From Prosthecobacter sp. (GTDB lineage: Bacteria; Verrucomicrobiota; Verrucomicrobiia; Verrucomicrobiales; Verrucomicrobiaceae), in the NCBI GenBank assembly GCA_030827515.1, contig JAUREI010000014.1, positions 1 to 40,186 of the forward strand: a stretch of DNA of 40,186 nucleotides. The letters are read 5' to 3'. The position numbers and the translations under genes are program-made. The notes under the pieces were generated by a model. It was not told the origin of the DNA and searched no databases. It saw only the letters and a program-made list of their open reading frames with translations. Shown here in pieces: positions 10,042 through 29,740 of this stretch; position 1 is the first letter of the stretch, and every line of letters starts with the position of its first letter.

Positions 10042-13000
10042 TCAACTGCGGGTGATGAACTCGTCCATGTTGAGGATCATGCGCACCGTCGCCACCCAGG
10101 CCGCGGCCGTGGCGACCGGAACCTTCGCCGGGACCCGGGCGCCGGCGGCGAGTTTCGCTTCCTCGGGACTGGCTGCGTAGTGGTAGAGGGCATCCGCAAG
10201 CAGTTGGCGAAGGGCCGCCTGTTCCCGCGCGGAAGGCAACCGCCCCACGGCGAGGCGGAAGGCAAGGGTGAGCCGTGCGTCGTCGTCCGCCAGCCCCTGC
10301 TGACCGAGGACGCGATGCGCGAGCCCCTGCGCCGCCTCGGCAAAGGCCTCGGCGTTCAGGGTGGTCAAGGCCTGAAGGGGCGTGTTGGAAACGGTGCGAC
10401 GGATGTTGGTGACGTTGGAATCCGGACAGTCGAAGGTGGTCAGGTCCGGATGCGGCGAGGTGCGCTTGAAGAAGGTGTAGAGGCCACGCCGGTAACGATC
10501 CTCCCCCTGGCTGGTGGTCCACTTGAAGTTGTTGGCATAACTCAGCGCGGCCACGTCCTCGGGCATCGGCGGAAACACGCTCGGCCCGCCAATCTTCGGC
10601 GACAGCAGGCCGGCGGCCGCCAAATGCAGGTCGCGGACGATCTCGGCCTCAACGCGCAGGCGGTTCTGGCGCCAGAGCAGGTGGTTGTTGGGGTCGACTT
10701 CCTGCAGTCGCGCCAACTCGCCGGCTTCACGCACGATGGCACTGCTCTGCCGGTAGGTGGCCGACAGCAGGATCGTCTTGAGCAGCTTCTTGCGGCTCCA
10801 GCCGCCCTCCATGAACTCGGCCGCCAGCCAGTCGAGCAGCCCGGGATGGGTGGGTCGCTCGCCGCGAACGCCGAAGTCGCCCGGCGTGTGCACGAGGCCG
10901 AGGCCGAACAGCTTGCCCCAGAAATGGTTGACCGTGACGCGCGCGGTCAGCGGGTTGTCGCGACGGACCAGCCAGCGGGCCAGATCGAGACGGGTCGCCC
11001 CCTCGCGCGGCCGGCCCGGAAGGGTCGCCACCCCGAGCATGGCCGGCCTGACCGGATCCGCCGGCTGAAGAAAGTCGCCCCGGTGCAGCAGCCGGGTTGA
11101 GCGCGGATTCTGGCTGCGTTGAGCGATCACCCGCACATCCATGAGCGGTGCTTTCGGCAACTTGTCCTGGGCCGCCTGCAGGGTCGCCGCCGCCGCAGTC
11201 ACCTCCGGATCGATCTTTTCCAGCCAGTCGTAGAGCGCCTGGATGACCACCGGATTGCGCCGGCGTGGCTCCTCGTTGAGGATGCGCACCACCGCGGCCG
11301 GGGCGAGACTTTCCTCCGTCTCCCGGAATGACGCCAGAACGCGGAAACGACCCAGCGTGTGGCTGCTGTCCTTGGCGTAATTCTGGTCAAGCTCGAGGCG
11401 GATCTCCTCGCCGGCCGAGACGGGTTCGGCGAGGTGCAGGGTGAGACGCTGTTCCTTGCCGGTGCCGCCGCCGACCGCCCAGCCGGTGTCCGCCTTGCTG
11501 TCCACTGCGGCTGCCGCTGCAAAGCCCTTCTGCTCATGCGTCGCCTTGGGCGAATGCAACCCTCGCGCGCGACCGGCGACGCTGACGCGGACCTCGCTGA
11601 GCACGAAATTGCCGCCACTGCTGCGACCCGGCCCCCGGGCCGGCAGGGTGGCGTCTGGCAGCACTTCAATCTGCAGGGAATGCACCGTCTTGGACGCTGC
11701 CGCCAATCGCAGGGTGTAGCGCTCGTTCTTCGCCTGTTTGCCCGACACCCGCAGCGAACCGTCATCCAGAGTCTCGAAGGTCGCGCCGGCGCGGCTCTTC
11801 GCCTCGACAATCCCCTGCGGCTCAAAGTGCGGGACGGTCTTGTCGGCACGCGCGCGCGCCAACCGCTCCTGCACCCCCTTCTCCCAGTCAGGCAGTCGCC
11901 GTGGCAGAGCGGCCTTGGCTTCGTCGAGCTTCTTTTGCAGGGGCAGCAGCGCGCGGGCCGCGGCACCGTTGGCTTCTTCATAGGCGGCCCAGGCCTCGGG
12001 CGAAACCGGCGCCTGGCGCGTGACCTCGTCGCCGTTGTCAAAGAAGGCATAGAGTTCGTAATACTCGCGCTGGGTGATCTGGTCGTATTTGTGCGTGTGA
12101 CAGCGCGCACAGCCAACGGTCAGCCCCAGCCAGACCGTGCCCACCGTCTCGGTGCGATCCATGCAGGCCTCGACGCGGAACTGTTCCTGATCGGTGCCGC
12201 CCTCGGTGTTGGTGAGGGTCTGTCGGTTGAAGGCGGTGGCGACGAGGGTCTCGGCGTCGGCATCCGGCAACAGGTCGCCAGCCAGTTGCTGGATCGTGAA
12301 CTGGTCGAAAGGCAGGTCGTCGTTCACGGCACGGATGACCCAGTCGCGGTAACGCCAGGCATCCGGCCGCGGCCGGTCCTTTTCATAACCGTCGCTGTCG
12401 GCATAACGCGCCATGTCGAGCCAGTGCCGGCCCCAGCGCTCGCCAAAATGCGGGCTCTGCAGCAGTTCGTCGACCAGTCGCTCATAGGTCGCATCGGACC
12501 AGTCGCGCAGGTTGGCGTCGAGCGTCTCCAGCGACGGTGGCAGCCCGGTGAGATCGAGGTGCAGACGGCGAATGAGCGTCGCGGGATCCGCCTCGGGCGA
12601 GGGCGTCAGCTTTTGTTCGGCAAGCTTCTGGCGAATGAAGGCGTCGATGGGATGCGGGGCGCCTTCCTGCGCCGGCACCAGCGGCCGCTCCACGGGTTGA
12701 TAGGCCCAGTGGAGTTCAAATTTTGCACCCTCGGCGATCCACTGCCGCAGCAGGCCGATCTCACGTTCCGTGACCGGTTTCTTGGCGCGCTGCTCGGGCG
12801 GCGGCATCTGCTCGTCCGGATCCTTCGTCTGCAGGCGGGCGAACAGACTGCCCTTCTCCGGCTGGCCCGGCACAATGGCATGGCCCCCGCTCTTCAGCGC
12901 CTTCGTCGCCAGTTCAAACGAGGTCAGCGTCAGCCCGCCCTTGGAGTCGTCGGGCCCGTGGCAAAGCAGACAGTGCTCGGCCAGGATCGGCTGGATGTCG

Positions 13001-13074
13001 CGCGCGAAGTCAACGGCCGCGCGCGCCGGCAGAACGACGGTGGCGAGAAGCAACAGGGACAGGAGGCGTGCCAT
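10042..13074 (-). CDS. PSD1 and planctomycete cytochrome C (DUF1549/DUF1553) domain protein
   Basis: This large secreted protein (1010 residues) belongs to a family expanded in Planctomycetes and Verrucomicrobia. After a signal peptide (MARLLSLLLLATVVLPARA) comes a PSCyt1 domain with a c-type haem motif, CLLCH near residue 37, and the usual MPPP distal segment. The DUF1549 (PSCyt2) domain follows from about residue 140 (HPIDAFIRQKLAEQKL) and includes a second CxxCH (CARCH) near 330. The C-terminal DUF1553 (PSD1) domain contains NPLTARVTVNHFW and FKRTSPHPDLTTFDCPD. A central region (about 500-600) resembles a carbohydrate-binding-like insert. Its biochemical role is unproven; it is presumed to be a periplasmic redox or glycan-linked protein. 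The usual DUF1501 partner is absent. The ATG at 13074 was chosen for the signal peptide; an upstream extension would translate the repeat region. Confidence 0.9.
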   Translation of the reverse strand: MARLLSLLLLATVVLPARAAVDFARDIQPILAEHCLLCHGPDDSKGGLTLTSFELATKALKSGGHAIVPGQPEKGSLFARLQTKDPDEQMPPPEQRAKKPVTEREIGLLRQWIAEGAKFELHWAYQPVERPLVPAQEGAPHPIDAFIRQKLAEQKLTPSPEADPATLIRRLHLDLTGLPPSLETLDANLRDWSDATYERLVDELLQSPHFGERWGRHWLDMARYADSDGYEKDRPRPDAWRYRDWVIRAVNDDLPFDQFTIQQLAGDLLPDADAETLVATAFNRQTLTNTEGGTDQEQFRVEACMDRTETVGTVWLGLTVGCARCHTHKYDQITQREYYELYAFFDNGDEVTRQAPVSPEAWAAYEEANGAAARALLPLQKKLDEAKAALPRRLPDWEKGVQERLARARADKTVPHFEPQGIVEAKSRAGATFETLDDGSLRVSGKQAKNERYTLRLAAASKTVHSLQIEVLPDATLPARGPGRSSGGNFVLSEVRVSVAGRARGLHSPKATHEQKGFAAAAAVDSKADTGWAVGGGTGKEQRLTLHLAEPVSAGEEIRLELDQNYAKDSSHTLGRFRVLASFRETEESLAPAAVVRILNEEPRRRNPVVIQALYDWLEKIDPEVTAAAATLQAAQDKLPKAPLMDVRVIAQRSQNPRSTRLLHRGDFLQPADPVRPAMLGVATLPGRPREGATRLDLARWLVRRDNPLTARVTVNHFWGKLFGLGLVHTPGDFGVRGERPTHPGLLDWLAAEFMEGGWSRKKLLKTILLSATYRQSSAIVREAGELARLQEVDPNNHLLWRQNRLRVEAEIVRDLHLAAAGLLSPKIGGPSVFPPMPEDVAALSYANNFKWTTSQGEDRYRRGLYTFFKRTSPHPDLTTFDCPDSNVTNIRRTVSNTPLQALTTLNAEAFAEAAQGLAHRVLGQQGLADDDARLTLAFRLAVGRLPSAREQAALRQLLADALYHYAASPEEAKLAAGARVPAKVPVATAAAWVATVRMILNMDEFITRS

Positions 13075-13138
13075 TCGTATGAAACGTCGGCTGCAGGCCA
13101 GCTTTGTCGCGGAGCGACACGGCGCCGGAGGGGAGTGG

Positions 13139-13213
13139 GACCCCGTTGACCCCATTGACCCCATTGACCTTGTTGACGCGATGTCAGTGGGGTCAACCAG
13201 GTCAACCCCGTCC
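13139..13213 (+). repeat. 9-bp-unit tandem repeat arranged as an inverted repeat
   Basis: Four head-to-tail 9-bp units (GACCCCGTT, GACCCCATT twice, GACCTTGTT) are followed by a 12-bp centre and then units in opposite orientation (GTGGGGTCA, ACCAGGTCA, ACCCCGTCC). The two halves can pair imperfectly over about 20 bp. It fills much of the 171-bp gap between the sulfatase stop and the PSD1 start, both on the minus strand. It could be a REP-like element, an attenuator or processing hairpin, or a slippage-derived repeat. Confidence 0.8.
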
Positions 13214-13245
13214 ATCCGGGTCTCCCAAGACCTGACGCCAGCCGG

Positions 13246-14865
13246 TTACTTCTTCCGGCCCTTCGGCTTCGGCTCGTCCTGAACGGGGCCTGCCATGGGC
13301 GGGCTCTCGAAAAACTTGCCGTCGTCGACGAGACGCGGGTCGCCGGTGCGCGACAGTTCCGCCATCAGGCGCTTCTCCAGGTCGGTCTTCACTGCGGCGT
13401 AGGCGGGGTCGTCGGCGAGGTTCTTCGTCTCATGCGGATCCTTGCGCAGGTCGTAGAGTTCATACTTGGGCCGCTTGCCATACACCCACTGGTAGTGCTT
13501 CTCCCACTCCGGCGAATGCCGCACGCCAACCAGCCAGGCCTTGGTTGGCCCGGCATCCTCGTCGGGATGCGTGACGCGCGTGGTCTCGGTGATCTCCCCG
13601 GCGGAGGGCGGACTGGAGCTGTCGAGCCCGTAGGGATCGCCCATGGGCCAGCGATCAGGGCGGAAATTGACGATGAGCACGTGGTCGGCCGTGCGCAGGG
13701 CGCGCTGCGGGTATGGGGTGTAATCGGCACGCGCGCTTTCAACATGGCGCTCGCGGCCGGTGACGACCCAGGTGCGCTGCGGATCCACCAAGCCCTGCTT
13801 GTCCGACTTGAGCACGGGCCAGAGGCTGCGACCGGTCATCACCTCTGGCACCGGCAGGCCGGCGGCCTCCAGGAAGGTCGGCGCGAGGTCGGTGAGGTTG
13901 ACGAAGTCATCGACCACCCGGCCGCCCTGGACGCCGGGGCCGGTGACCGACAGACAGACGCCGGTGCCAAAGCCGTAGAGGTTGCACTTGCCGTGCGGGA
14001 AGCCGGGCGCGCCGTGGTCGCCGCTGATGACGATGAGGGTGTTGTCGAGTTCCCCCGCTTTCTCGACGGCCTCAATGAGCTGACCGATGGCGTGGTCCCA
14101 GGCCTGGACCTCGCCGAAGTAATCCGCCAGATCCTCGCGCACCTCGGGCACGTCGGGAAGATAGGGTGGCATCCGGCCCTTCAGGGAATCGGGATCGATG
14201 TCCCAGAGTTTCTTGCCGCTGCCCTTGATCCAGGTGCGATGCACATTGGTCGGGCCGAACCAGTAGCAAAAGGGCTTGTCGCCCTCCCGCGCGGCCAGGA
14301 AGTCGCGGAAATTGCCGCGCACCTCGTCATACAGCACTTCCTTGGCGGCCTGCATCTCCCTGCCCTCGGCGACCATCTTCGTGACGTTCTGGGAGAACTG
14401 GTTGAACCTGCCGCCCGCCTTCTGGTAGGAGTGGGCTTGCTGGCCGTAGGGGGCATCGGCCGGCGTGCCAGGGCTCCAAACCTTGTAAGTCTTGCCGATG
14501 TGATAGCCGGATTCCCGGAGCAGCAGCGGGTAGGCGGGAATCGTTTCGTCCCAGACCGCGCCGCGCAGGATGGCGCCGCGGCCGGTGCGCCAGAAATACT
14601 GGCCCGAAAGCAGCGAACTGCGGCAGGGCGTGCAGGAGGGCGCGTTGACGTGGGCGTTGCGGAAGAGCACGCCCTTGCGGGCAATCTTGTCAAAGTTCGG
14701 CGTGCGCACGACATCGTTGATGCTGCCGGGTCCCTCGACCTCGGCAAAAACGCTGGCATAGCGCCCCCAGTCGTCGGCGAACAGGAAGAGAATGTTGGGC
14801 CGGTCGGCAGCGGCAAGCGCGCCGGCAAACATCAGGACGGCAAGGGCGGTCAGTCGTTTCATCAT
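13246..14865 (-). CDS. Secreted sulfatase, sulfamidase/heparan N-sulfatase-like
   Basis: This 539-residue type I sulfatase hydrolyses sulfate esters or N-sulfates using a formylglycine. It has a signal peptide ([20 protein letters not shown]), the metal-binding [12 protein letters not shown] segment, and the active-site core CTPCR with the convertible Cys at about 78. Later come a KTYKVW segment, a [14 protein letters not shown] metal/sulfate-site region, and the C-terminal [17 protein letters not shown] typical of the family. The overall pattern resembles sulfamidases (assignment from memory). Position +3 of the core is Cys rather than the usual Ser. The protein ends in a Pro/Lys-rich tail ([10 protein letters not shown]). 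It follows the next sulfatase by 41 bp and is probably co-transcribed with it. ATG codons at 14865 and 14862 are adjacent; I used the first. Confidence 0.88.
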
Positions 14866-14906
14866 GCCCCATGGCAACGCCGGCCCACGTGGGGTCTTTC
14901 GGCGGC

Positions 14907-16445
14907 TCAAGGCGCCGGTTTTTTGGCGACTGCCTTCGATGCCTTGCCGGGTCCCTTTTTGCCGGCGGCAGGCGGGCCCTGCGGCACGGCCTCGGGATGG
15001 CGGTCCAGCATGGCCCGCAGCTGAGCCACCACCTGCGGCTGTTCGGCGGCTAGATTGCGCCGTTCCAGCGGATCGGCTTCATAGTCATACAACTCCAGTT
15101 CCGCCGTGGCCACCGGGGCACCCGACCGTTTCCACTCAACCAGCCTGTAGCGCTCCGTGCGGATGGCGCGACCAATCGTCTCCTTGGGGTAGCAGTGAAA
15201 GGCATGATCGCGCACCCGTGCCTGAGGGTCGAGCAGCACGGGCACGAGGCTCACGCCATCGACCGCCTGTGGCCCGGCCGGTGCCGGCAGCCCGGCGAGT
15301 TCGGCAAGCGTGGGGAACACATCCACCGTCTCGGCCAACTGCCGGGTATGCGAACCGGGTTGGGCGACCCCCGGGGCAACCACCAGCAGTGGGATGCGGT
15401 TCGCCTGCTCGTAGTTCGTGTGCTTCGTCCAGATGCCGAGATCACCCAGATGAAACCCGTGATCGCCCCAAAGCACGACGAGGGTGTCATCCGCCAGGCC
15501 GAGGCGGTCGAGTTCGTCGAGCACCCTGCCGATCTGGGCATCGACAAAGCTGGTGCTCGCATAGTAACCGTGGATGAGCCGGCGCTTGAGTTCCGGGTCG
15601 AAGGCCGTGTCCGGCGACTCCGGCACAGGGGCGTAGGCGGCGATTTCCCCGCCGCGCTTGTGCGCCACGCGCGGCGAGCCGGCCGGCAGTTCCTCAAAGA
15701 CCGGCTGCGGCAGCGAGGCGGGATCATGCAGGTCCCAATATTTTTGGGGGGCGCAAAACGGCAGGTGTGGACGCACGAAGCCGGCGGCGAGAAAAAACGG
15801 CGTGCCATCGCGATGGCGGCGTTCGGCGGCCGCTTGGAGGCGTCGCACCGCCTCGGCCGCGACCCGGCCGTCGGCGTAATCCTCGTCCTCGGCCTGTGGG
15901 GACTCAAAGGCGGCACCGCGGGGCAGGCTGCGGATGCGGTCGAGTTGCTGGTTGGTGAACAGCGCCTCCTCGCGCGTCAATTGCCCGCCGCTGGTGCTCG
16001 CCGGGTCGAGATACTCGATGACCTTGTCCTTGAAATGCGGCACGCTGAACGATGCCGGATCCCCGTCATTGCCATGGCCGATATGAAAGACCTTGCCGAT
16101 CGACTCGGTGCGGTAGCCGCCGTGGCGGGCAAAATGCTGCGGCAGGGTCACCGCGTCGGGCAGGCGTTCGCGCAGACGGCTGCCGAGGCCATACAAGCCG
16201 GTCGAGGTCGAGTGCGAACCGAGCATCAGGTTGAAGCGCGAGGGTGCACAGACGGCCTGGTTGCAGTAGGCGAGGTCAAAGCGCATGCCTCGAGCGGCGA
16301 GGCGGTCGATGTGCGGCGTTTTCGCGTGGGCATCCCCGTAGCAGCCGAGGGCGGGCTTGAGGTCGTCGACCAGAAGCAGCAGCACGTTCGGCGCCGCCGG
16401 CAGCAGGTGCGGCAGCAGGAAGAAAACGGGGATCAGGCGTGTCAT
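14907..16445 (-). CDS. Secreted sulfatase, iduronate-2-sulfatase-like
   Basis: This 512-residue secreted sulfatase has a signal peptide of about 18 residues ([18 protein letters not shown]). [18 protein letters not shown] carries the paired metal Asp residues, and the formylglycine core is CAPSR with Cys at about 66, followed by FNLMLG as in iduronate-2-sulfatases. Further family elements are the [10 protein letters not shown] segment, [14 protein letters not shown], the [19 protein letters not shown] catalytic/metal loop and the C-terminal [15 protein letters not shown]. Its substrate is likely a sulfated uronic-acid or related glycan (inference). The last 20 residues form a Lys/Ala/Pro-rich tail. 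It is the first gene of a minus-strand pair and is divergent from the DUF5722 gene. A GTG sits one codon before the chosen ATG. The upstream leader resembles that of the sulfatase at 20346-21728. Confidence 0.9.
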
Positions 16446-16457
16446 CACCTCAGGATA

Positions 16458-16517: not shown

Positions 16518-16567
16518 CGCCACCGGCTGACAAGTCGCCCGTGCAGTGCATGTTCCCTGCCCCCCGC

Positions 16568-18601
16568 ATGCCAGTCCTTCCACTCTGCCTGTTCACCCTC
16601 CTGACCGCCCTCGCCCTTGAGGCGGCGGACATTCCGCTGTCCCACGGCCCGCACCGTGACCTCGTGCTGAAACCGGAACCGGAAGGCGTGCTGGCGGTCA
16701 CGCTGGGGGAAGGCCATCCGCACTTCTGGACCGCCGTGGTCCCGGCCGGCTATGATCCGAAACGCGAGACCGTGCTGACGTTCGATGCCTTTGCCCCGTC
16801 CGGCCTCGACAGCGTCGTGTTGCGCTACCGTGTTGAAAGCGGCGACATGGCGGTCGCCGAAGTCCGGCAGATGGCCTTCAGCGAAACCTGGCAGCCCGTG
16901 GCGTTCGACCTCGGTCAGCTTGAAATCCAACCCGCCGCCGGTCATCCGGAGATGCGCTTTCACTTTGCCCTCAACGGCAAGCCCGGCACGGAACTGCGCC
17001 TGCGCGGGATTCGCCTGCGCGAACCCACCGCCGAGGAACGGCACCTGGCCGCGAACCGCGAGCGCCGGCAGGCGGAACGCGAGGCCGATGCCGCCGCCAT
17101 CCTGGCCGACCTGCGGAAGACCTATCCCGCCACCCTCGACACGGTGCATGTCGGCGCGGACCTCATCACGCTCACGGGCCAGAGTCCCGGAGCGGCGCGA
17201 CTGATCGGCATCGCCCCGGAAACGCCGTCGCACCTCGCGGACCCGAAGGCCGAAGCCGCTGCGGAAATTGTCCCGGACGCCCAGGGCCGTTTCCGCCTGG
17301 ACCTGCCGCGCCGAAGTCCCGAGGCGCCACCCGACCGCGCCCTCTGGCGCTGGCGTCTGGCCGATGGCGAGGGTCGCTGGCTGTCGGTCGCTCGATGGCC
17401 CACGGCCTATGGCCCCGCCGTTGGCCGCAAGCTGCCGAAGCTGAGCGCGCCGCACCCAAAAGGCATCGGCGTGCCGCCGCTGAACCGGGCCGATCATGAA
17501 CTCTTCGAACTCGGCCTGCGCCATGCGACGGTGAACATTCTCGTCACCGCCCTGTTGCGCGACACCCCCGCACCGGGTTGGCAGGCCTGGGAGTTTGAGG
17601 GGAAGACCTGGTATCGCAACGAGCGCGCCCTGCAGGGGCACGACACCACCCTGCGCCTGCTCGCGCAAAACGACATCATCGTCAGCGCCATCCTGCTCGT
17701 TCCCAACAGTCGCCAACCCGACGGCACACCCCACAGCGCCCTTGTTCATCCCGAGGCCGAAGTGCGCGGCATTTACTCAATTCCCAACCTGACCCGCGAA
17801 CACGGCGCGCGGTTTTACCGCGCCGCCCTGCATCTGATGGCCGAACGCTGGTCGCAAAAGGACGGACCCCGCGTCAGCAACTGGATCCTGCACAACGAGA
17901 TCGACCAGGCCGCCACCTGGACCAACATGGGCGACCAGCCGCTGGCCCGCTATCTGGAAACCTACCTGCGCAGCGCCCGCCTCACCCATCACACCGCGCG
18001 CCTGTTCGATCCGCATGCCCGCGTCTTTGTATCGCTCACCCATCACTGGGCCAAAAAAAGCAGCGGCAGCGGCACCTACATCGTGCGCGAGGTGCTTGAG
18101 CATTTCGCCGAGATGGCAAGGACCGAGGGTGACTTCGAGTGGGGGGTCGCCTATCACCCCTACCCGCGCGACCTGCGCAATCCCGACGCCTGGAAGGACG
18201 AGGACCTGACCCACGACTTTGACACGCCCTACATCACCCCGCGCAACATCGCCGTGCTGCCGGCCTTTCTCGACCAGCCGCGGTTCCACTTTGAAGGCCG
18301 GCCTCGCGGCATCCTGCTCTCGGAACAGGGCTTCAACACGCCAACCCTCAGCGAAGCCGACCAGCGCCGCCAGGTCGCCGGCCTGATTTACATGTTCCGC
18401 CAGATCCGCCCGTTGAAAACCATCGAGGCCTTCCACCTGCACCGCTATCATGACATGCCGGAACAGGAGGGTGGACTGCGCCTCGGCATCATCACCGAGA
18501 CCGGCGCCCACAAGCTCGGCTGGGAGGCCTACAAGGCCATCGGCACCGACCGCGAAGCCGAGTTCGACCGCATCGCCGACGAGGTCATGCGGGAACCCTA
18601 A
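16568..18601 (+). CDS. Secreted DUF5722 protein, putative clan GH-A glycoside hydrolase
   Basis: This 677-residue secreted protein has a signal peptide (MPVLPLCLFTLLTALALEAA). Residues from about 25 to 175 form a beta-rich, carbohydrate-binding-like region. A charged helix (AEERHLAANRERRQAEREAD) and a second beta domain follow. From about residue 300 comes the DUF5722 domain, which I recognise by its KGIGVPPLN start and which reads like a TIM barrel. Two glutamates have GH-A-like contexts: HNEID with Glu at about 444 (acid/base candidate) and LLSEQGFNT with Glu at about 586 (nucleophile candidate). A WGVAYHPYP segment lies between them. The catalytic assignment is inference. It is divergent from the iduronate-2-sulfatase-like gene and therefore probably acts on the same sulfated glycan. 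An ATG at 16550 is an alternative start. Confidence 0.82.
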   Translation: MPVLPLCLFTLLTALALEAADIPLSHGPHRDLVLKPEPEGVLAVTLGEGHPHFWTAVVPAGYDPKRETVLTFDAFAPSGLDSVVLRYRVESGDMAVAEVRQMAFSETWQPVAFDLGQLEIQPAAGHPEMRFHFALNGKPGTELRLRGIRLREPTAEERHLAANRERRQAEREADAAAILADLRKTYPATLDTVHVGADLITLTGQSPGAARLIGIAPETPSHLADPKAEAAAEIVPDAQGRFRLDLPRRSPEAPPDRALWRWRLADGEGRWLSVARWPTAYGPAVGRKLPKLSAPHPKGIGVPPLNRADHELFELGLRHATVNILVTALLRDTPAPGWQAWEFEGKTWYRNERALQGHDTTLRLLAQNDIIVSAILLVPNSRQPDGTPHSALVHPEAEVRGIYSIPNLTREHGARFYRAALHLMAERWSQKDGPRVSNWILHNEIDQAATWTNMGDQPLARYLETYLRSARLTHHTARLFDPHARVFVSLTHHWAKKSSGSGTYIVREVLEHFAEMARTEGDFEWGVAYHPYPRDLRNPDAWKDEDLTHDFDTPYITPRNIAVLPAFLDQPRFHFEGRPRGILLSEQGFNTPTLSEADQRRQVAGLIYMFRQIRPLKTIEAFHLHRYHDMPEQEGGLRLGIITETGAHKLGWEAYKAIGTDREAEFDRIADEVMREP

Positions 18602-18936: not shown

Positions 18937-20349
18937 TCAGCCCTTCTTCTTTTTCTTTGGCGCCGGCGGCGGTTCGGTGAGTGAAGGACCGTTGTCCTGT
19001 GGCATCGACGCGTTCCATTCACGGGCGAGGCGGGTCAGGCGGGCAACAACGTCGGGTTGGCGTTCGGCAAGGTTGTCGGCCTCGCCAGGATCACGGTTCA
19101 GGTCATAGAGTTCGGGACGGCCTCCATCGAAGTCGCACAGCAGTTTCCAGTGACCCTCGCGCACGGCGAGATCGGGCAGTGGCCCGGCCCCGTAGGCATA
19201 CTTGCGATCGGGCGGCCGGCGCCAGAAAAGCGGTGCACGCCGCGAGCCTTCCTCCCGACCGAGCAGGGTTGGCGCAAGATTTTCGCCATCGAAGGAGGCC
19301 TCCGTTTTGACCCCGGCGAGGGCGAGCAACGAAGGTGCCAGGTCGAAGGCGGCGAACACCGAGGTTTGATTCACGATCCCCGCCTTCTCCGCGGCCATCA
19401 GGCCGGGCCCCCAGACCACCAGCGGCGAACGGATGCCACCTTCCAGGAGGGTGGCCTTGTGGCCGCGCAAGGGACCGCCGCTGCCGACCCCGTTTTCGTG
19501 ACCGTTGTCCGAGCAGACGAGGATGAGCGTGTTGTCGCGGAGCGTGGGTTCGGCACGGATGTGGTCAAACAACCGCCCCAACCGACGGTCCATCTCCTCC
19601 AGCACGGAGAGATACAACCGCCGCTTGCTACCATCGCCCCAGCGGTCGACACGCGGCCACCACGGGCCATGCACGTCGTCGGGCCAGAGGTTCACGTAAA
19701 ACGGCTTCCCTGCGGCGGTGGCGCGCTTGATGAAGGGGATGGCGGCATCGACAAAGCCGCCGGTGATCTCGCTGCGCTGCATCCAGACGACCGGACCGCC
19801 CAGGCGCTCGGCATCCTCCCAGATGCGCCCCGGCTCCGTGTCCCCGGGACGCAGGGTGAGCGGCAGCAGCTTGGGGCCCATGCCCTCAAAGTTGGTCAGG
19901 CTTTCGTCAAAGCCGTAGGCGCTGATGGGCGGCGCGTCGTCGACATCGCGCTGGCCGCCGAGGTGCCATTTGCCGAAGTGCCCCGTGGCGTAGCCGCCGC
20001 CCTGCAACAGACGCGCCAGGGTGGTCGCGTTCGGGTCCAGCCACTGGGCCACGCCGCGGCGGGTGTTGTCCTCCCGGTTGTTGAGGTAGGAGGTGATCTT
20101 CCAGCGCTGCGGATACTGGCCCGTGCTGAGGGCGCAGCGCGAGGGCGAACAGATCGGTGAGTTGACGTAAAACTGCTCGAAGCGACGCCCTTCCGCCGCC
20201 AAACGGTCAATGTTCGGCGTCTTTGCCTCGCGATTGCCGAAGCAGGAGAAGTCGGCCCAGCCCATGTCGTCGATGAACACGACCACGAAGTTCGGCGGCG
20301 TGGCTGCGGCGGCGCCGGCCAGGAGAAAAAGAAACAGCAGGGATTTCAT
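18937..20349 (-). CDS. Secreted arylsulfatase, N-acetylgalactosamine-6-sulfatase-like
   Basis: This 470-residue secreted sulfatase has a signal peptide (MKSLLFLFLLAGAAAA). FVVVFIDDMGWADFSCFG carries the metal-binding Asp pair, and the formylglycine core is CSPSR with Cys at about 67, followed by CALSTGQYP. Family motifs follow: TGHFGKWHLGG with the active-site Lys/His, LVCSDNGHENG, GHKATLLEGGIRSPL and the C-terminal ELYDLNRDPGEADNLAE. The pattern is that of GALNS/arylsulfatase A-type enzymes; the exact sulfate position on the sugar cannot be read from sequence. The protein ends in PPPAPKKKKKG. Its ATG overlaps the stop of the upstream sulfatase as ATGA, so translation is probably coupled and the two enzymes are made together. 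Confidence 0.9.
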   Translation of the reverse strand: MKSLLFLFLLAGAAAATPPNFVVVFIDDMGWADFSCFGNREAKTPNIDRLAAEGRRFEQFYVNSPICSPSRCALSTGQYPQRWKITSYLNNREDNTRRGVAQWLDPNATTLARLLQGGGYATGHFGKWHLGGQRDVDDAPPISAYGFDESLTNFEGMGPKLLPLTLRPGDTEPGRIWEDAERLGGPVVWMQRSEITGGFVDAAIPFIKRATAAGKPFYVNLWPDDVHGPWWPRVDRWGDGSKRRLYLSVLEEMDRRLGRLFDHIRAEPTLRDNTLILVCSDNGHENGVGSGGPLRGHKATLLEGGIRSPLVVWGPGLMAAEKAGIVNQTSVFAAFDLAPSLLALAGVKTEASFDGENLAPTLLGREEGSRRAPLFWRRPPDRKYAYGAGPLPDLAVREGHWKLLCDFDGGRPELYDLNRDPGEADNLAERQPDVVARLTRLAREWNASMPQDNGPSLTEPPPAPKKKKKG

Positions 20350-21728
20350 GGGGGGGTGATGATCCAGTCCTTGGGCGCACGGAAACCCTCGCGCCCCTCG
20401 TCATAACGGCCAACGCCGGGTTGGTGCCAGCTGCCAAACTCGCGAAGGGCGGTGTGCAGATCCCTCACACGCTGCGCTTCGGTCGCTCGAAGATCCCGCG
20501 TTTCGCCGGGATCGCTTTCGAGGTCGTAAAGCTCCAGCACGGGCGGCCTGGCCGGGGCCTCCGCAAAGAAGTCGCCCTGGGCGACCAGCTTCCAGCGCCC
20601 CAGATGCACCGAGGCGTGGGCGTCCTCGTTTTGATGAAGGTAACTGAACCAGGGACGATCGGGCAGTTCGGCCCCGCCTCGCAGGGCCGGCAGGACATTG
20701 ATGCCGTCGGGGGATGGCAACTCCGCCGCGATGGGCACTCCGGCCGCGGCAAGCAGGGTCGGCAGGACATCGATGTATCCGATGCGACCCCCGAAGCTTC
20801 GTCCCCCGCCCAGACCTCCGGCTGGCCAGCGGATCGCGGCACAGACGCGGGTGCCTCCCTCGTGCACCGACAGCTTGCCACCCCGCCAGGGGCCGTTGCT
20901 GGCGCCGGCGCGTGGGATGCCCCCATTGTCACTGAAAAAGAGCACCAGCGTGTTGTCGGCATCCGGCCGCGCTTCGACGGCGGCGAGGATGCGGCCAACG
21001 TTCTGGTCGAGCGACTCGATCATGGCGGCGTAGGCGCGGCGCTCGGGGCGCTTGAACCGGGTCTGCTTTTGCATCGCCTCGGCCGGCGCCTGATAGGGGG
21101 AATGAGGCGCGGTGAACGGCACGTAAAGCAGCCAGGGCTGCCCGGTGGGCGAGGCCTCAATGAAGCGCACCGCGTGTTCGCCGATGAGGTCGGTCGTGTA
21201 GCCCGGCTCGCGCACCGTTTCACGGTTGTGATGCCAGTCGGTCTCGCCGTCGCGCTCGCGGGTGAAGTAATCCACCGCGCCGTTGTAGCAGCCGACGAAG
21301 TGCGTGAAGCCGTGGTGCAGCGGGTGGTGAACCTGGCGGGAATGCCCGAGATGCCATTTGCCGATGATGCCACGACGTTCGTAGCCGGCTCCGGACAGGC
21401 GCTCCGGCAGGGTGGCCTCGCTGTGCGGCAGGCCGTGGGCGGACCACGGTGGAACGACGGCGCGCATGAGTCCGAAGCGCAGTGGCCAGCGTCCGGTGAG
21501 CAGGCCGGCCCGGGTGGGCGAACACATGGGGCAGGCGCGGAAATCCGTGAGCTTGACCCCCGTGGCGGCAAGCCGGTCGAGTTGGGGCGTCGGGTAGTCT
21601 TGACCGCCGTTGAAGCCGACATCGGCCCAGCCGAGATCGTCGGCGAGCAGAATCAGGAGATTCGGCCGAGCCGACTCGGCACGGCCAAGAACCGGCAGCA
21701 GGAGCGCGATGAGGATCCACAGCTTCAC
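20346..21728 (-). CDS. Secreted arylsulfatase, arylsulfatase A/B-like
   Basis: This 460-residue secreted sulfatase begins with GTG at 21728, preceded by TAGGGT, and has a signal peptide (MKLWILIALLLPVLGRAESA). LLILLADDLGWADVGFNGG holds the metal Asp residues. The formylglycine core is CSPTR with Cys at about 69, followed by AGLLTGRWP. RGIIGKWHLGHS carries the active-site Lys/His, FFSDNGG is the second metal site, and GGKLSVHEGGTRV and ELYDLESDPGETRDL complete the family pattern. Unlike the other four sulfatases here it has no Lys-rich tail, ending in FRAPKDWIITPP. It is the first gene of a pair with the GALNS-like enzyme and lies divergent from waaA across 155 bp. It shares a leader with the iduronate-2-sulfatase-like gene. 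Confidence 0.9.
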   Translation of the reverse strand: MKLWILIALLLPVLGRAESARPNLLILLADDLGWADVGFNGGQDYPTPQLDRLAATGVKLTDFRACPMCSPTRAGLLTGRWPLRFGLMRAVVPPWSAHGLPHSEATLPERLSGAGYERRGIIGKWHLGHSRQVHHPLHHGFTHFVGCYNGAVDYFTRERDGETDWHHNRETVREPGYTTDLIGEHAVRFIEASPTGQPWLLYVPFTAPHSPYQAPAEAMQKQTRFKRPERRAYAAMIESLDQNVGRILAAVEARPDADNTLVLFFSDNGGIPRAGASNGPWRGGKLSVHEGGTRVCAAIRWPAGGLGGGRSFGGRIGYIDVLPTLLAAAGVPIAAELPSPDGINVLPALRGGAELPDRPWFSYLHQNEDAHASVHLGRWKLVAQGDFFAEAPARPPVLELYDLESDPGETRDLRATEAQRVRDLHTALREFGSWHQPGVGRYDEGREGFRAPKDWIITPP

Positions 21729-27143: not shown

Positions 27144-28562
27144 CTACTCCCCGGCCTTCTTCTTTTTTTTGCCCGGCTTGTCGATTTTGTTCGCGGGCTT
27201 TTTCAAGGTCGGCGCCACCTCCGCCTCGGCGGCCGGCAACGCCGCTGCCAGGCGCGCCTTGAGGTCGGCATGTTCCGCCAACCCGGCGAGATTGCGGAAC
27301 TCACCCGGATCGTCGCGGTGGTGGTAGAGTTCCTCACTGCCATCCGCATACCGGATGTATCGCCAGTCGCGGTCGCGCACGGCATGGTTGCCGCGCCCGT
27401 GCGTGCAGACGCCAACGGAGGCCCAGTCGCCCCGCGGATCACGCAGCAGGGGAACCAGACTCGGACCCTTGACATGCGCCGGCAGGGGCACACCGGTGAG
27501 TTCGCAAAGGGTTGGATACACGCTCATGTAATCCACCGGCGCGCCGCAGGTCTGTCCGGGCCGTCCGACACCGGGCGCCACCACCGCAAAGGAGGTGCGG
27601 GTCGCCTCCTCCCAGAGGGCAAACTTGCGCCAGTGCTCCTTTTCACCGAGATGCCAGCCATGGTCGGTCCACCAGACAATGACCGTCTTGTCGCGACGCG
27701 GGCTGGCGTCAAGACCGTCGAGCAGGCGGCCGACCTGCTCATCGAGAAAGGAGATGGTGGCAAGGTAGGCCTGCACGGCCTTCGCCCACTGCCCGCCCTT
27801 GACGACAGCGGCGTGGTCGCCCTCAGGTCTGGCCATCTGGCGGCCGGCCGACGGCACATCGTCGAGATCGTTTTCGCCCACGACCGGCAGCTGGATCTGG
27901 TCGAGCGGGAAGCGGTCGAAATACTCGCGCGGCACATACCACGGCAGGTGCGGCTTGACGTAGCCAACCGCGAGGAACAGCGGCTGGTCCGCCGGCGCGT
28001 TCTGCAGGGTATCGATCGCCCAGGTGGTCAGCTTGTGATCGCCCATCTCCTCGGTTTTGGCATCGACCGGTCCCCAGTCAAAATGGCCGCGGTCGAGACC
28101 GCTGTAATTCTCCTCGTGCTCCTGAATGCTGGGAAACAGGCCCTTCCATTCCGTCCAACTGTCCTCCCGGCCCTCGCTGCTGTAGCCATGGTAGATCTTG
28201 CCGCCACCAAGGGTGCGATAGCCCTGGGCCAAAAAGTGGCGGTTGATCGTGAGGGTGTCGCGCATCACGTCCTGGGCCGGGTCGGCATTGGTGTAAACGC
28301 CGGTCTGCCAGGGCCGCAGACCGCTCATCAGGGCGGCACGCGACGGGTTGCAGGCCGGGGCGGCACAGTGGCTGTTGGTGAAGGCGGTGCCCCGCGCCAC
28401 CAGGCGGTCGATGTTCGGCGTGCGCGCCTGCGGATGCCCCCGCAGGTAGCCGGTCCAGTCGTTGAGGTCGTCGACGGCGATGAACAGCACGTCGGGCCGG
28501 CCGCTTTGGGCCGGGGCGGCAACGGCGACAGTCAGGAGGAGGCAGAGGCTGAGAAAGCGCAT
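27144..28562 (-). CDS. Secreted sulfatase (fifth in window), iduronate-2-sulfatase/choline-sulfatase-like
   Basis: This 472-residue secreted sulfatase has a signal peptide (MRFLSLCLLLTVAVAAPAQS). VLFIAVDDLNDWTGYLRGHP holds the metal Asp pair, and the formylglycine core is CNPSR with Cys at about 71, followed by AALMSG. GGKIYHGYS, LFLAVGYVKPHLPWYVP, WWTDHGWHLGEKEHWRKFALWEE and ELYHHRDDPGEFRNLA are typical of the iduronate-2-sulfatase-type group. The C-terminus is a Lys-rich tail (KIDKPGKKKKKAGE). The ATG at 28562 is the natural signal-peptide start. An ATG at 28607 overlaps the stop of the glycosyltransferase as ATGA and would add a 15-residue Arg-rich extension, so it remains possible. It is probably co-transcribed with the glycosyltransferase gene. 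Confidence 0.88.
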   Translation of the reverse strand: MRFLSLCLLLTVAVAAPAQSGRPDVLFIAVDDLNDWTGYLRGHPQARTPNIDRLVARGTAFTNSHCAAPACNPSRAALMSGLRPWQTGVYTNADPAQDVMRDTLTINRHFLAQGYRTLGGGKIYHGYSSEGREDSWTEWKGLFPSIQEHEENYSGLDRGHFDWGPVDAKTEEMGDHKLTTWAIDTLQNAPADQPLFLAVGYVKPHLPWYVPREYFDRFPLDQIQLPVVGENDLDDVPSAGRQMARPEGDHAAVVKGGQWAKAVQAYLATISFLDEQVGRLLDGLDASPRRDKTVIVWWTDHGWHLGEKEHWRKFALWEEATRTSFAVVAPGVGRPGQTCGAPVDYMSVYPTLCELTGVPLPAHVKGPSLVPLLRDPRGDWASVGVCTHGRGNHAVRDRDWRYIRYADGSEELYHHRDDPGEFRNLAGLAEHADLKARLAAALPAAEAEVAPTLKKPANKIDKPGKKKKKAGE

Positions 28563-28574
28563 GGCCCGCTGGTA

Positions 28575-28597
28575 ACGCGTCCGGCAACGCCATCTTG
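28575..28597 (-). promoter_or_regulatory. Shared ACGCGT/CAAGATG element before the fifth sulfatase
   Basis: On the minus strand, CAAGATG (28591-28597), 10 bp and ACGCGT (28575-28580) precede the ATG, with ACGCGT starting 13 bp upstream of it. This repeats the proximal half of the leaders at 16458-16517 and 21739-21796 with identical spacing. The distal GATAGGCG block is absent here, where the upstream sequence is coding. Confidence 0.35.
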
Positions 28598-28603
28598 CCG
28601 GGC

Positions 28604-29740
28604 TCATGCCGGCTCTGGTGACCGGACCGGGATGCCGAAGGCGCGCTGCAGTTCACCGAGGTGGGCGGCCGGCGAAAACAGGCCAAGGGCGCGCTCCTGG
28701 AGTTCTCCGACATGCCGGGCAAGAACCTCCGGCTGGCGCATTTGGGCATCGATGCGGGCGGCAAGGGCGTCGGGGTCAAAGGACTCGCTCACAAAATCCG
28801 GCCGCTGCGTACCAAAGATGTCATCGGCCCCCTCACAGGGATACATGAAGCAGGGGCGCCCGGCCTCCAGCGCCTCGATGACCGAACCGGGCAGCGCTTC
28901 GCGCAGGCTGGTGAGCAGGCAGATCTCCGCGAGATCAAAGAGCGGCCGAACATTCGGGACATTGCCGAGACGCAGCACGCGATCGGCGACGCCGCAGGCA
29001 TCGATGGCCGCCGTCATCTCCGCCTCGTAGTCCGGTTCACAATCGCCCGCCAGCGCCAGGCCGAAGCCGGCATGGCCGAGGTCGAGCAGGCGGCGCAGCA
29101 CGCGCACGGCGTCAGCCTGCCGTTTGCGCGGACCCAGCTTGCCGATGACGAGCAGCCAGCGATCGACCGCCGGACAGGCCTTCAGGCGTTCGGCGAGAGC
29201 ATTCGCCACCTCGGCCGGCACGGGGGGGGGCAGGCGCACGGAGTCGAGAAAGACCTGGGTGCGCGCGGCGAGATCCGCATCGACCCGCAGGCCCTCGGCG
29301 ATCTGGATCGAGGAGGGCAGCAAGAGGTCATTGCGATGCAGATGATAGCGGCGCGCCTTGGGCGCGGTGGCGATGCCGTCGCGAATGATGACCGCCGAAC
29401 GCGCGCCCAGACTGCGGGCCAGAGCACCGGCATGGGGTGCCCACCACATCTCGTTGCTGACGACCCAGTCGGCCCGCTGGAACGGCAGTTTCCGCAGATT
29501 GGCACGCATGGCGCCGCCAAAGCGCAGGCGATCCCCGAGTTTACGCCACTCCGGCAGCGTCCCGACGGTGCAGGGCACGCCCATTTCGGCCAAACGGTCC
29601 GTGAATTCACCGGTTTCTCCGCACAGCACATGCAGGCGCGCGTCACTACCGCCCTGAAGCGCGGCGAGGGTGTCCAGCAAGCGGTTCTTGGCGCCGCCGC
29701 GCCCGGCGGTTTTTTGGAGGAAGAGAAACTGTTCGGCCAT
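28604..29740 (-). CDS. Glycosyltransferase, GT4-like (GT-B fold)
   Basis: This 378-residue cytoplasmic glycosyltransferase fits the GT-B, family 1/4 pattern. The N-terminal half begins MAEQFLFLQKTAGRGGAKNR and includes ADWVVSNEMWWAPHAG. The C-terminal half starts near residue 190 with RWLLVIGKLGPRKRQADAVR (the usual nucleotide-sugar domain strand), then LALAGDCEPDYEAEM and VLRLGNVPNVRPLFDLAEICLLTS. The donor-binding region is LREALPGSVIEALEAGRP, with the conserved Glu. The donor and acceptor are unknown; a role in LPS or other surface-glycan synthesis is plausible because waaA and lpxB are nearby. The ATG at 29740 was chosen over a non-conserved 21-residue extension starting at 29803. The stop lies 41 bp before the fifth sulfatase. 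Confidence 0.83.
   Translation of the reverse strand: MAEQFLFLQKTAGRGGAKNRLLDTLAALQGGSDARLHVLCGETGEFTDRLAEMGVPCTVGTLPEWRKLGDRLRFGGAMRANLRKLPFQRADWVVSNEMWWAPHAGALARSLGARSAVIIRDGIATAPKARRYHLHRNDLLLPSSIQIAEGLRVDADLAARTQVFLDSVRLPPPVPAEVANALAERLKACPAVDRWLLVIGKLGPRKRQADAVRVLRRLLDLGHAGFGLALAGDCEPDYEAEMTAAIDACGVADRVLRLGNVPNVRPLFDLAEICLLTSLREALPGSVIEALEAGRPCFMYPCEGADDIFGTQRPDFVSESFDPDALAARIDAQMRQPEVLARHVGELQERALGLFSPAAHLGELQRAFGIPVRSPEPA

Follow-up and report, generated by a model that had tools for sequence, protein, structure and literature searches.

A DUF5722 protein of Prosthecobacter as a candidate clan GH-A glycoside hydrolase encoded among sulfatases

Judging from sequence and predicted structure, DUF5722 very probably represents a clan GH-A glycoside hydrolase family that is unassigned in the libraries searched (Pfam and NCBIfam). 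The window analysed here, a stretch of 40,186 nucleotides (contig C172) from the 4.05-Mb draft genome of a Prosthecobacter sp., carries the only DUF5722 match of that genome. The original prediction regarded this protein as a GH-A glycosidase with Glu444 and Glu586 as catalytic pair, and that reading is supported computationally by the fold, by conservation and by four profile alignments. We infer the chemistry, stereochemistry and substrate of DUF5722 as set out below.

Identity and predicted fold of the DUF5722 protein

Translation from ATG16568, which also sets the residue numbering used throughout, yields a protein of 677 amino acids in a forward frame that ends at position 18601 and has GTG16439 as its longest possible start (Table 1). 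The proposed DUF5722 identity was borne out by a Pfam scan (PF18989; E-value 5.9e-101; 338.6 bits against a cut-off of 30.5), in which the match spanned residues 301–676 when numbered from position 16556. The Pfam description of PF18989 gives no function, and a Pfam scan up to an E-value of 1 revealed nothing beyond DUF5722 and a weak TiaS_FLD match. An NCBIfam scan likewise returned one sub-threshold, unrelated match and no glycosidase family. Among solved structures, phmmer with the DUF5722 protein found no match up to an E-value of 10, and hmmsearch with alignment A1 yielded weak unrelated rows (best E-value 0.42). No paper naming DUF5722 or PF18989 was found in the literature searched.

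After the start of the protein comes a hydrophobic, signal-like stretch, from which secretion is predicted. The remainder was modelled with AlphaFold2 (window positions 16625–18598; pLDDT 95.3; pTM 0.92; model number plus 19 equals protein number), and the model contains a (beta/alpha)8 barrel whose strands, as assigned by DSSP, span model residues 279–282, 300–306, 352–358, 419–422, 466–471, 506–510, 563–568 and 600–605. The two glutamates, located in the motifs HNEID (Glu444) and LLSEQGF (Glu586) and 142 residues apart as originally noted, occupy the anticipated places in this predicted barrel: Glu444 (model residue 425) just after strand 4 within an Asn-Glu pair, and Glu586 (model residue 567) at the end of strand 7 (model residues 563–568).

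Comparison of the model with the PDB by Foldseek gave 282 rows at an E-value of at most 0.001, the best 50 of which were considered and are all GH-A-type barrels, which we take to be GH2, GH39, GH50, GH10, GH1 and GH53 enzymes (several of these family labels stem from entry names). Superposition by VIA-align placed the GH39 structure 5jvk first among the matches listed, with Z 26.0 and an rmsd of 3.4 over 310 residues; GH1, GH10 and PslG chains came next (Z 23–24.5), and the 50 matches listed (Z 21.9–26.0) are GH-A-type barrels (GH39, GH1, GH10 and similar). Three hallmarks of clan GH-A were found on the predicted model: a related barrel, an Asn-preceded Glu at strand 4 and another Glu where strand 7 ends.

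The N-terminal half, described beforehand as beta-rich, indeed comprises in the model a beta-sandwich and a second beta region with a long helix between them, and a separate model covered the first 272 residues of the mature protein (pLDDT 95.5; pTM 0.78). The sandwich (first 134 residues) matched the N-terminal part of the agarase 5z6p (VIA Z 12.2; rmsd 2.7 over 129 residues), and CBM29, CBM6 and CBM30 at Z about 11. Because Cry-toxin sandwich domains scored equal to 5z6p (Z 12.2 to the N-terminal domain), this match shows only that the domain is a sandwich of such kind. On the basis of the model, the N-terminal domain may bind glycan.

Table 1. Features of the window bearing on the DUF5722 protein and its neighbours
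Feature	Position	Strand	Basis or remark
DUF5722 gene	16550..18601	+	start ATG16550 or ATG16568; numbering from 16568
Putative secretion signal MPVLPLCLFTLLTALALEA	16568..16624	+	by eye from sequence
CBM-like N-terminal beta-sandwich	16625..17026	+	model residues 1–134; VIA matches
Long helix (model 136–164) and second beta region (model 170–246)	17027..17440	+	AlphaFold2 models
DUF5722 / predicted GH-A-type (beta/alpha)8 barrel	17456..18586	+	Pfam, AlphaFold2 model, structure searches, profile alignments
Glu444 codon, proposed acid/base, after barrel strand 4	17897..17899	+	model, conservation, profile alignments
Glu586 codon, proposed nucleophile, end of barrel strand 7	18323..18325	+	model, conservation, profile alignments
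PSCyt1/PSCyt2/PSD1 protein adjoining sulfatases	10045..13215	-	
Sulfatase, signature CTPCR rather than the usual CxPSR	13246..14910	-	sequence
Sulfatase, divergent neighbour	14907..16448	-	best solved match 6hhm, 1.4e-78
Sulfatase, convergent neighbour	18937..20349	-	solved matches: 7stt best, then 9fo1 (kappa-carrageenan sulfatase S1_16)
Sulfatase	20346..21728	-	
Fifth window sulfatase, some 8.5 kb away from DUF5722	27147..28607	-	

Conservation of the glutamate pair and alignment with GH-A families

Of 288 genomes drawn from across the phylum, 25 carry DUF5722 (24 of them over the cut-off), as do 30 of 37 close relatives and none of the 14 control genomes. A scan of GTDB genomes revealed 408 relatives, and the best 80 of these 408, which were kept, belong mostly to Verrucomicrobiota and Planctomycetes, with further members in, among others, Flavobacteria, Lentisphaerae and Armatimonadota. 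An IMG/VR scan with alignment A1 confirmed no DUF5722 relative. Short DUF5722 forms (open frames of about 413–450 amino acids), which have no room for long N-terminal modules, are frequent in the same genus and order (L003, L005, L006, L030, L032 and others). An Arenibacter DUF5722 protein (L099:11159-12964) is extended at its C-terminus by about 600 amino acids that have no Pfam or PDB match, and that of a flavobacterial MAG (L094) also has an extension, which runs nearly to the contig end.

The cleanest set for judging conservation comprised 47 domains found by the PF18989 HMM, which required no single residue (L025, a 19.5-bit fragment under the cut-off, was left out). The invariance on which the predicted pair depends was observed for Glu444 and Glu586 in all 47 of these domains, and in 78/78 sequences of alignment A3, for which 77 of the 80 relatives were used (L081, L085 and L086 being truncated). 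Asn443, Trp451, Arg471, Trp494, Trp525, His530, Pro531, Tyr532, Trp542, Thr557, Asn560, Arg580, Gly588, His625, Asp629, Glu634, Gly640 and Thr660 were likewise kept in 47/47. The aligned domain of the window contains 28 Glu residues, and after Glu444, Glu586 and Glu634 (47/47 each) the next best was conserved in 29/47. Glu634 (codon 18467–18469), located after barrel strand 8, is in this HMM-found set as invariant as the proposed catalytic pair.

The 80 relatives had been retrieved by two peptide patterns, one with the Asn-Glu motif and one with HPYP, so that Asn443, Glu444, His530 and Tyr532 are partly conserved by construction in that set; Glu586 is in neither pattern. Among the 24 of 77 A3 relatives that lie outside the Asn-Glu pattern, Glu444 and Glu586 were each present in 24/24 and Asn443 in 23/24 (one His). 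The merged set of 108 sequences, not fully independent in that five contigs, to judge by their equal lengths, are common to both sources, retained Glu444 and Glu586 in 108/108 (partly biased for Glu444), Asn443 in 107/108 and Glu634 in 106/108.

This 108-sequence DUF5722 profile was compared by hhalign with profiles of four GH-A families, each derived from members encoded by genomes of the host phylum: GH39 (28 of 30 loci, without L141 and L148), GH10 (28 of 30, without L166 and L176), GH42 (22 of 25, without L191, L192 and L199) and GH5 (24 of 25, without L229, which has one internal stop). Probabilities and scores were 95.5 and 71.4 for GH39, 91.5 and 56.9 for GH42, 87.7 and 51.6 for GH10, and 62.5 and 41.6 for GH5. 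In all four alignments, Asn443-Glu444 fell on the Asn-Glu pair and Glu586 on the strand-7 Glu, which we take to be the nucleophile of those families. His530 and Tyr532 aligned with His and Tyr in GH39 and GH5, but not in GH10 and GH42, while His625 fell on Trp in GH39 and GH10, on Phe in GH42, and was unaligned in GH5.

Controls covered the GH39 and GH10 comparisons. The reversed DUF5722 profile scored 18.1 against GH39 and 15.6 against GH10, 20 column shuffles reached maxima of 23.8 and 22.9, respectively, and the DUF5722 profile scored 19.3 against a sulfatase profile. The six pairs among GH39, GH10, GH42 and GH5 themselves scored 59.1–90.4, so that the GH39 link (71.4) falls inside the known-family range and the GH10, GH42 and GH5 links (41.6–56.9) fall below it. 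TIM barrels are common, and with three of the four profile scores lying under those of known-family pairs, DUF5722 could be a TIM barrel of other function that resembles GH-A by chance and happens to have two conserved glutamates. However, GH39, GH10, GH42 and GH5 agree on both residues, with GH39 and GH10 the score exceeds twice that of the reversed and shuffled controls, and the best 50 rows of each structure search are GH-A-type barrels, which makes chance resemblance very improbable.

Since DUF5722 has no Pfam match to GH39, GH10, GH42 or GH5, we consider it a relative rather than a member of these families. The host genome itself gave no match to the GH39 model PF01229, nor to PF00331 (E-value 0.001), PF02449 (E-value 1e-40) or PF00150 (E-value 1e-30). 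It is conceivable, if rather unlikely, that DUF5722 already belongs to an existing CAZy family, either a recent one or one without a Pfam model, its label being merely outdated. The structural neighbours include GH50 enzymes that combine a CBM-like domain with a barrel, which would suit such an assignment; against it, the searches found no Pfam or NCBIfam glycosidase family and no DUF5722 paper, CAZy's own tables lying outside their scope. As this possibility is compatible with DUF5722 being a clan GH-A glycoside hydrolase family, it lowers the novelty only.

Sulfatase neighbours, fusions and candidate substrates

The divergently transcribed sulfatase that had been reported upstream of the DUF5722 gene was confirmed, and the window contains five sulfatases in total, of which four lie no more than about 3.5 kb away from it. 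The best solved match of the divergent neighbour, 6hhm, is listed in PMC9096561 as the ulvan endo-2-sulfo-xylose sulfatase P18_S1_7. The 4.05-Mb genome gave 94 sulfatase matches (some of them fragments and one below the cut-off), which if evenly spread would amount to about 0.9 sulfatases per 40 kb, and sulfatase clusters exist elsewhere in the genome too. In the locus of one relative (L074), a protein with PSD2-5/PSCyt3 domains is present.

A sulfatase HMM built from the window's own sulfatases was searched in the 80 relatives and the window (81 loci), and revealed 80 sulfatases in 41 loci, window included, with the DNA examined in the other 40 (some of it very short) being without sulfatase. 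An earlier count, with 4 of 80 loci omitted for lack of an assigned ORF, had found a sulfatase as the next ORF in 7 of 76 loci and present in 35 of 76. In successive 2.5-kb steps from DUF5722, the number of sulfatases per kb was 0.098, 0.045, 0.039 and 0.077. Because this density rises again at 7.5–10 kb and the genome is rich in sulfatases (94 matches), proximity alone is weak evidence, and we rejected it as the sole support for a functional link.

Stronger support than proximity comes from fusions of DUF5722 to a sulfatase, which occur in 5 of the 81 loci. Specifically, the sulfatase is C-terminal to DUF5722 in L064, L066 and L083 (full) and in L070 (partial), and N-terminal to it in L076. 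When the neighbouring proteins were clustered, DUF5722 and the sulfatases fell into a single group, an outcome that we attribute to these fusions; the sulfatase count was then taken by HMM. The same fusions would also suit a catalytically dead GH-A barrel that now serves as a glycan-binding module or as a scaffold for sulfatases, and non-enzymatic GH-A barrels do exist, with beta-Klotho among the structural matches. However, dead enzymes usually drop one of the catalytic pair in part of the family, whereas both glutamates as well as Asn443, His530 and Tyr532 are kept throughout the HMM-found sequences (47/47), and we judge the loss of catalysis to be quite improbable.

In one of the 81 loci, DUF5722 is fused to a 3-keto-disaccharide hydrolase (PF06439; L119:9035-11752). 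Near DUF5722 in L115 and L123 lie Gfo/Idh/MocA oxidoreductases whose similarity to glycoside 3-dehydrogenases is sub-threshold; together with the L119 fusion they hint at an oxidative glycoside pathway. At 13 of the 81 loci a conserved protein of about 370 amino acids is encoded downstream of DUF5722 (e.g. L061:11209-12294 and L069:11202-12314), in many of them followed by a sulfatase; Pfam matched neither of the two members scanned, and one gave weak PDB rows (best E-value 0.055).

Homologues of GH78 alpha-L-rhamnosidases are present in 10 of 81 loci, and their coordinates place them beside DUF5722, in the same orientation, in L096, L101, L112, L120, L122 and L128. The L115 locus of Algibacter lectus further contains two rhamnose genes upstream and on the opposite strand: one is L-rhamnose isomerase-like but scores below the curated cut-off, and the other, which scores above it, encodes a bifunctional rhamnulose-phosphate aldolase/dehydrogenase of the RhaD type. 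An ulvan or rhamnose substrate was suggested by these rhamnose genes, the GH78 homologues and the 6hhm match, but was not adopted, as rhamnose isomerase homologues occur in 2 of 81 loci and other sulfatases best match carrageenan enzymes. For instance, the best solved match of the sulfatase in the L064 fusion is the kappa-carrageenan sulfatase S1_16, and that of the sulfatase neighbouring DUF5722 in L115 is an exo-4S-kappa-carrageenan sulfatase. A further reason is that no match to GH78 (PF17389) was found in the host genome. Because the nearest solved sulfatases point to ulvan and carrageenan both, we leave the polymer open; we hold with moderate confidence that the substrate is a sulfated polysaccharide, while a polymer of rhamnose and uronate is the leading guess, and a tentative one.

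This setting accords with PMC8857213, where sulfated fucose- and rhamnose-containing glycans are reported as the speciality of Verrucomicrobiota, and both Verrucomicrobiota and Planctomycetota are described as rich in sulfatases; the term 'DUF' is absent from PMC8857213.

Proposed mechanism and relation to known systems

In the mechanism that we propose, the protein would be secreted, with its CBM-like N-terminal domain possibly binding glycan, and its (beta/alpha)8 barrel would cut a glycosidic bond by a two-step retaining mechanism. Glu444, in the Asn-Glu pair after strand 4, would serve as acid/base, and the nucleophile would be Glu586 at the end of strand 7. A near-invariant His625 would stand where GH39 and GH10 carry the strand-8 Trp. 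The enzyme would act beside S1 sulfatases on sulfated polysaccharide.

The fold and the catalytic pair fit hydrolysis and transfer alike, since a GH-A fold and its pair cannot tell the one from the other, and the same glutamates might serve a transglycosylase or a phosphorolytic reaction. Some loci, however, have catabolic neighbours (sulfatases, rhamnosidases and rhamnose catabolism genes), which argues for hydrolysis and makes such an outcome improbable. As a glycoside hydrolase, DUF5722 might possibly constitute a new GH-A family at the CAZy level whose active site takes sugars that are sulfated or freshly desulfated. His625 and basic residues near it would replace the strand-8 Trp, and fused members would then desulfate a polymer and subsequently cut its backbone, e.g. 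that of an ulvan-like polysaccharide (rhamnose and uronate). We consider this extension speculative. The expected chemistry would be ordinary for GH-A, and the new part would be the family, the substrate and the sulfatase fusions.

Marine carbon turnover has a bottleneck in the breakdown of sulfated polysaccharides, and the partner glycosidases of the sulfatases of Verrucomicrobiota and Planctomycetota are partly unknown. The relatives of the DUF5722 protein gain a predicted fold, a predicted mechanism and two residues to mutate, by which a large unnamed gene group acquires a testable function, and the natural sulfatase fusions provide a direct handle on the substrate.

Compared with known systems, DUF5722 has its catalytic columns in common with GH10, GH42 and GH5, but scores lower with these profiles than with GH39 and has no Pfam match to them. 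The GH50 beta-agarases, among the best Foldseek rows, resemble it in combining a CBM-like sandwich with a GH-A barrel; however, identity is about 11%, the comparison concerns the fold alone, and no examined neighbour suggests agar. GH39 is nearest, both by structure among the matches listed (5jvk) and by profile among the four families compared. DUF5722 differs from it in sequence (13% identity over the 5jvk match), in having His625 in place of the GH39 Trp and in its N-terminal modules, but appears to have in common with it the Asn-Glu pair after strand 4, the aligned His and Tyr, the Glu after strand 7 and an Asp that aligns with Asp629.
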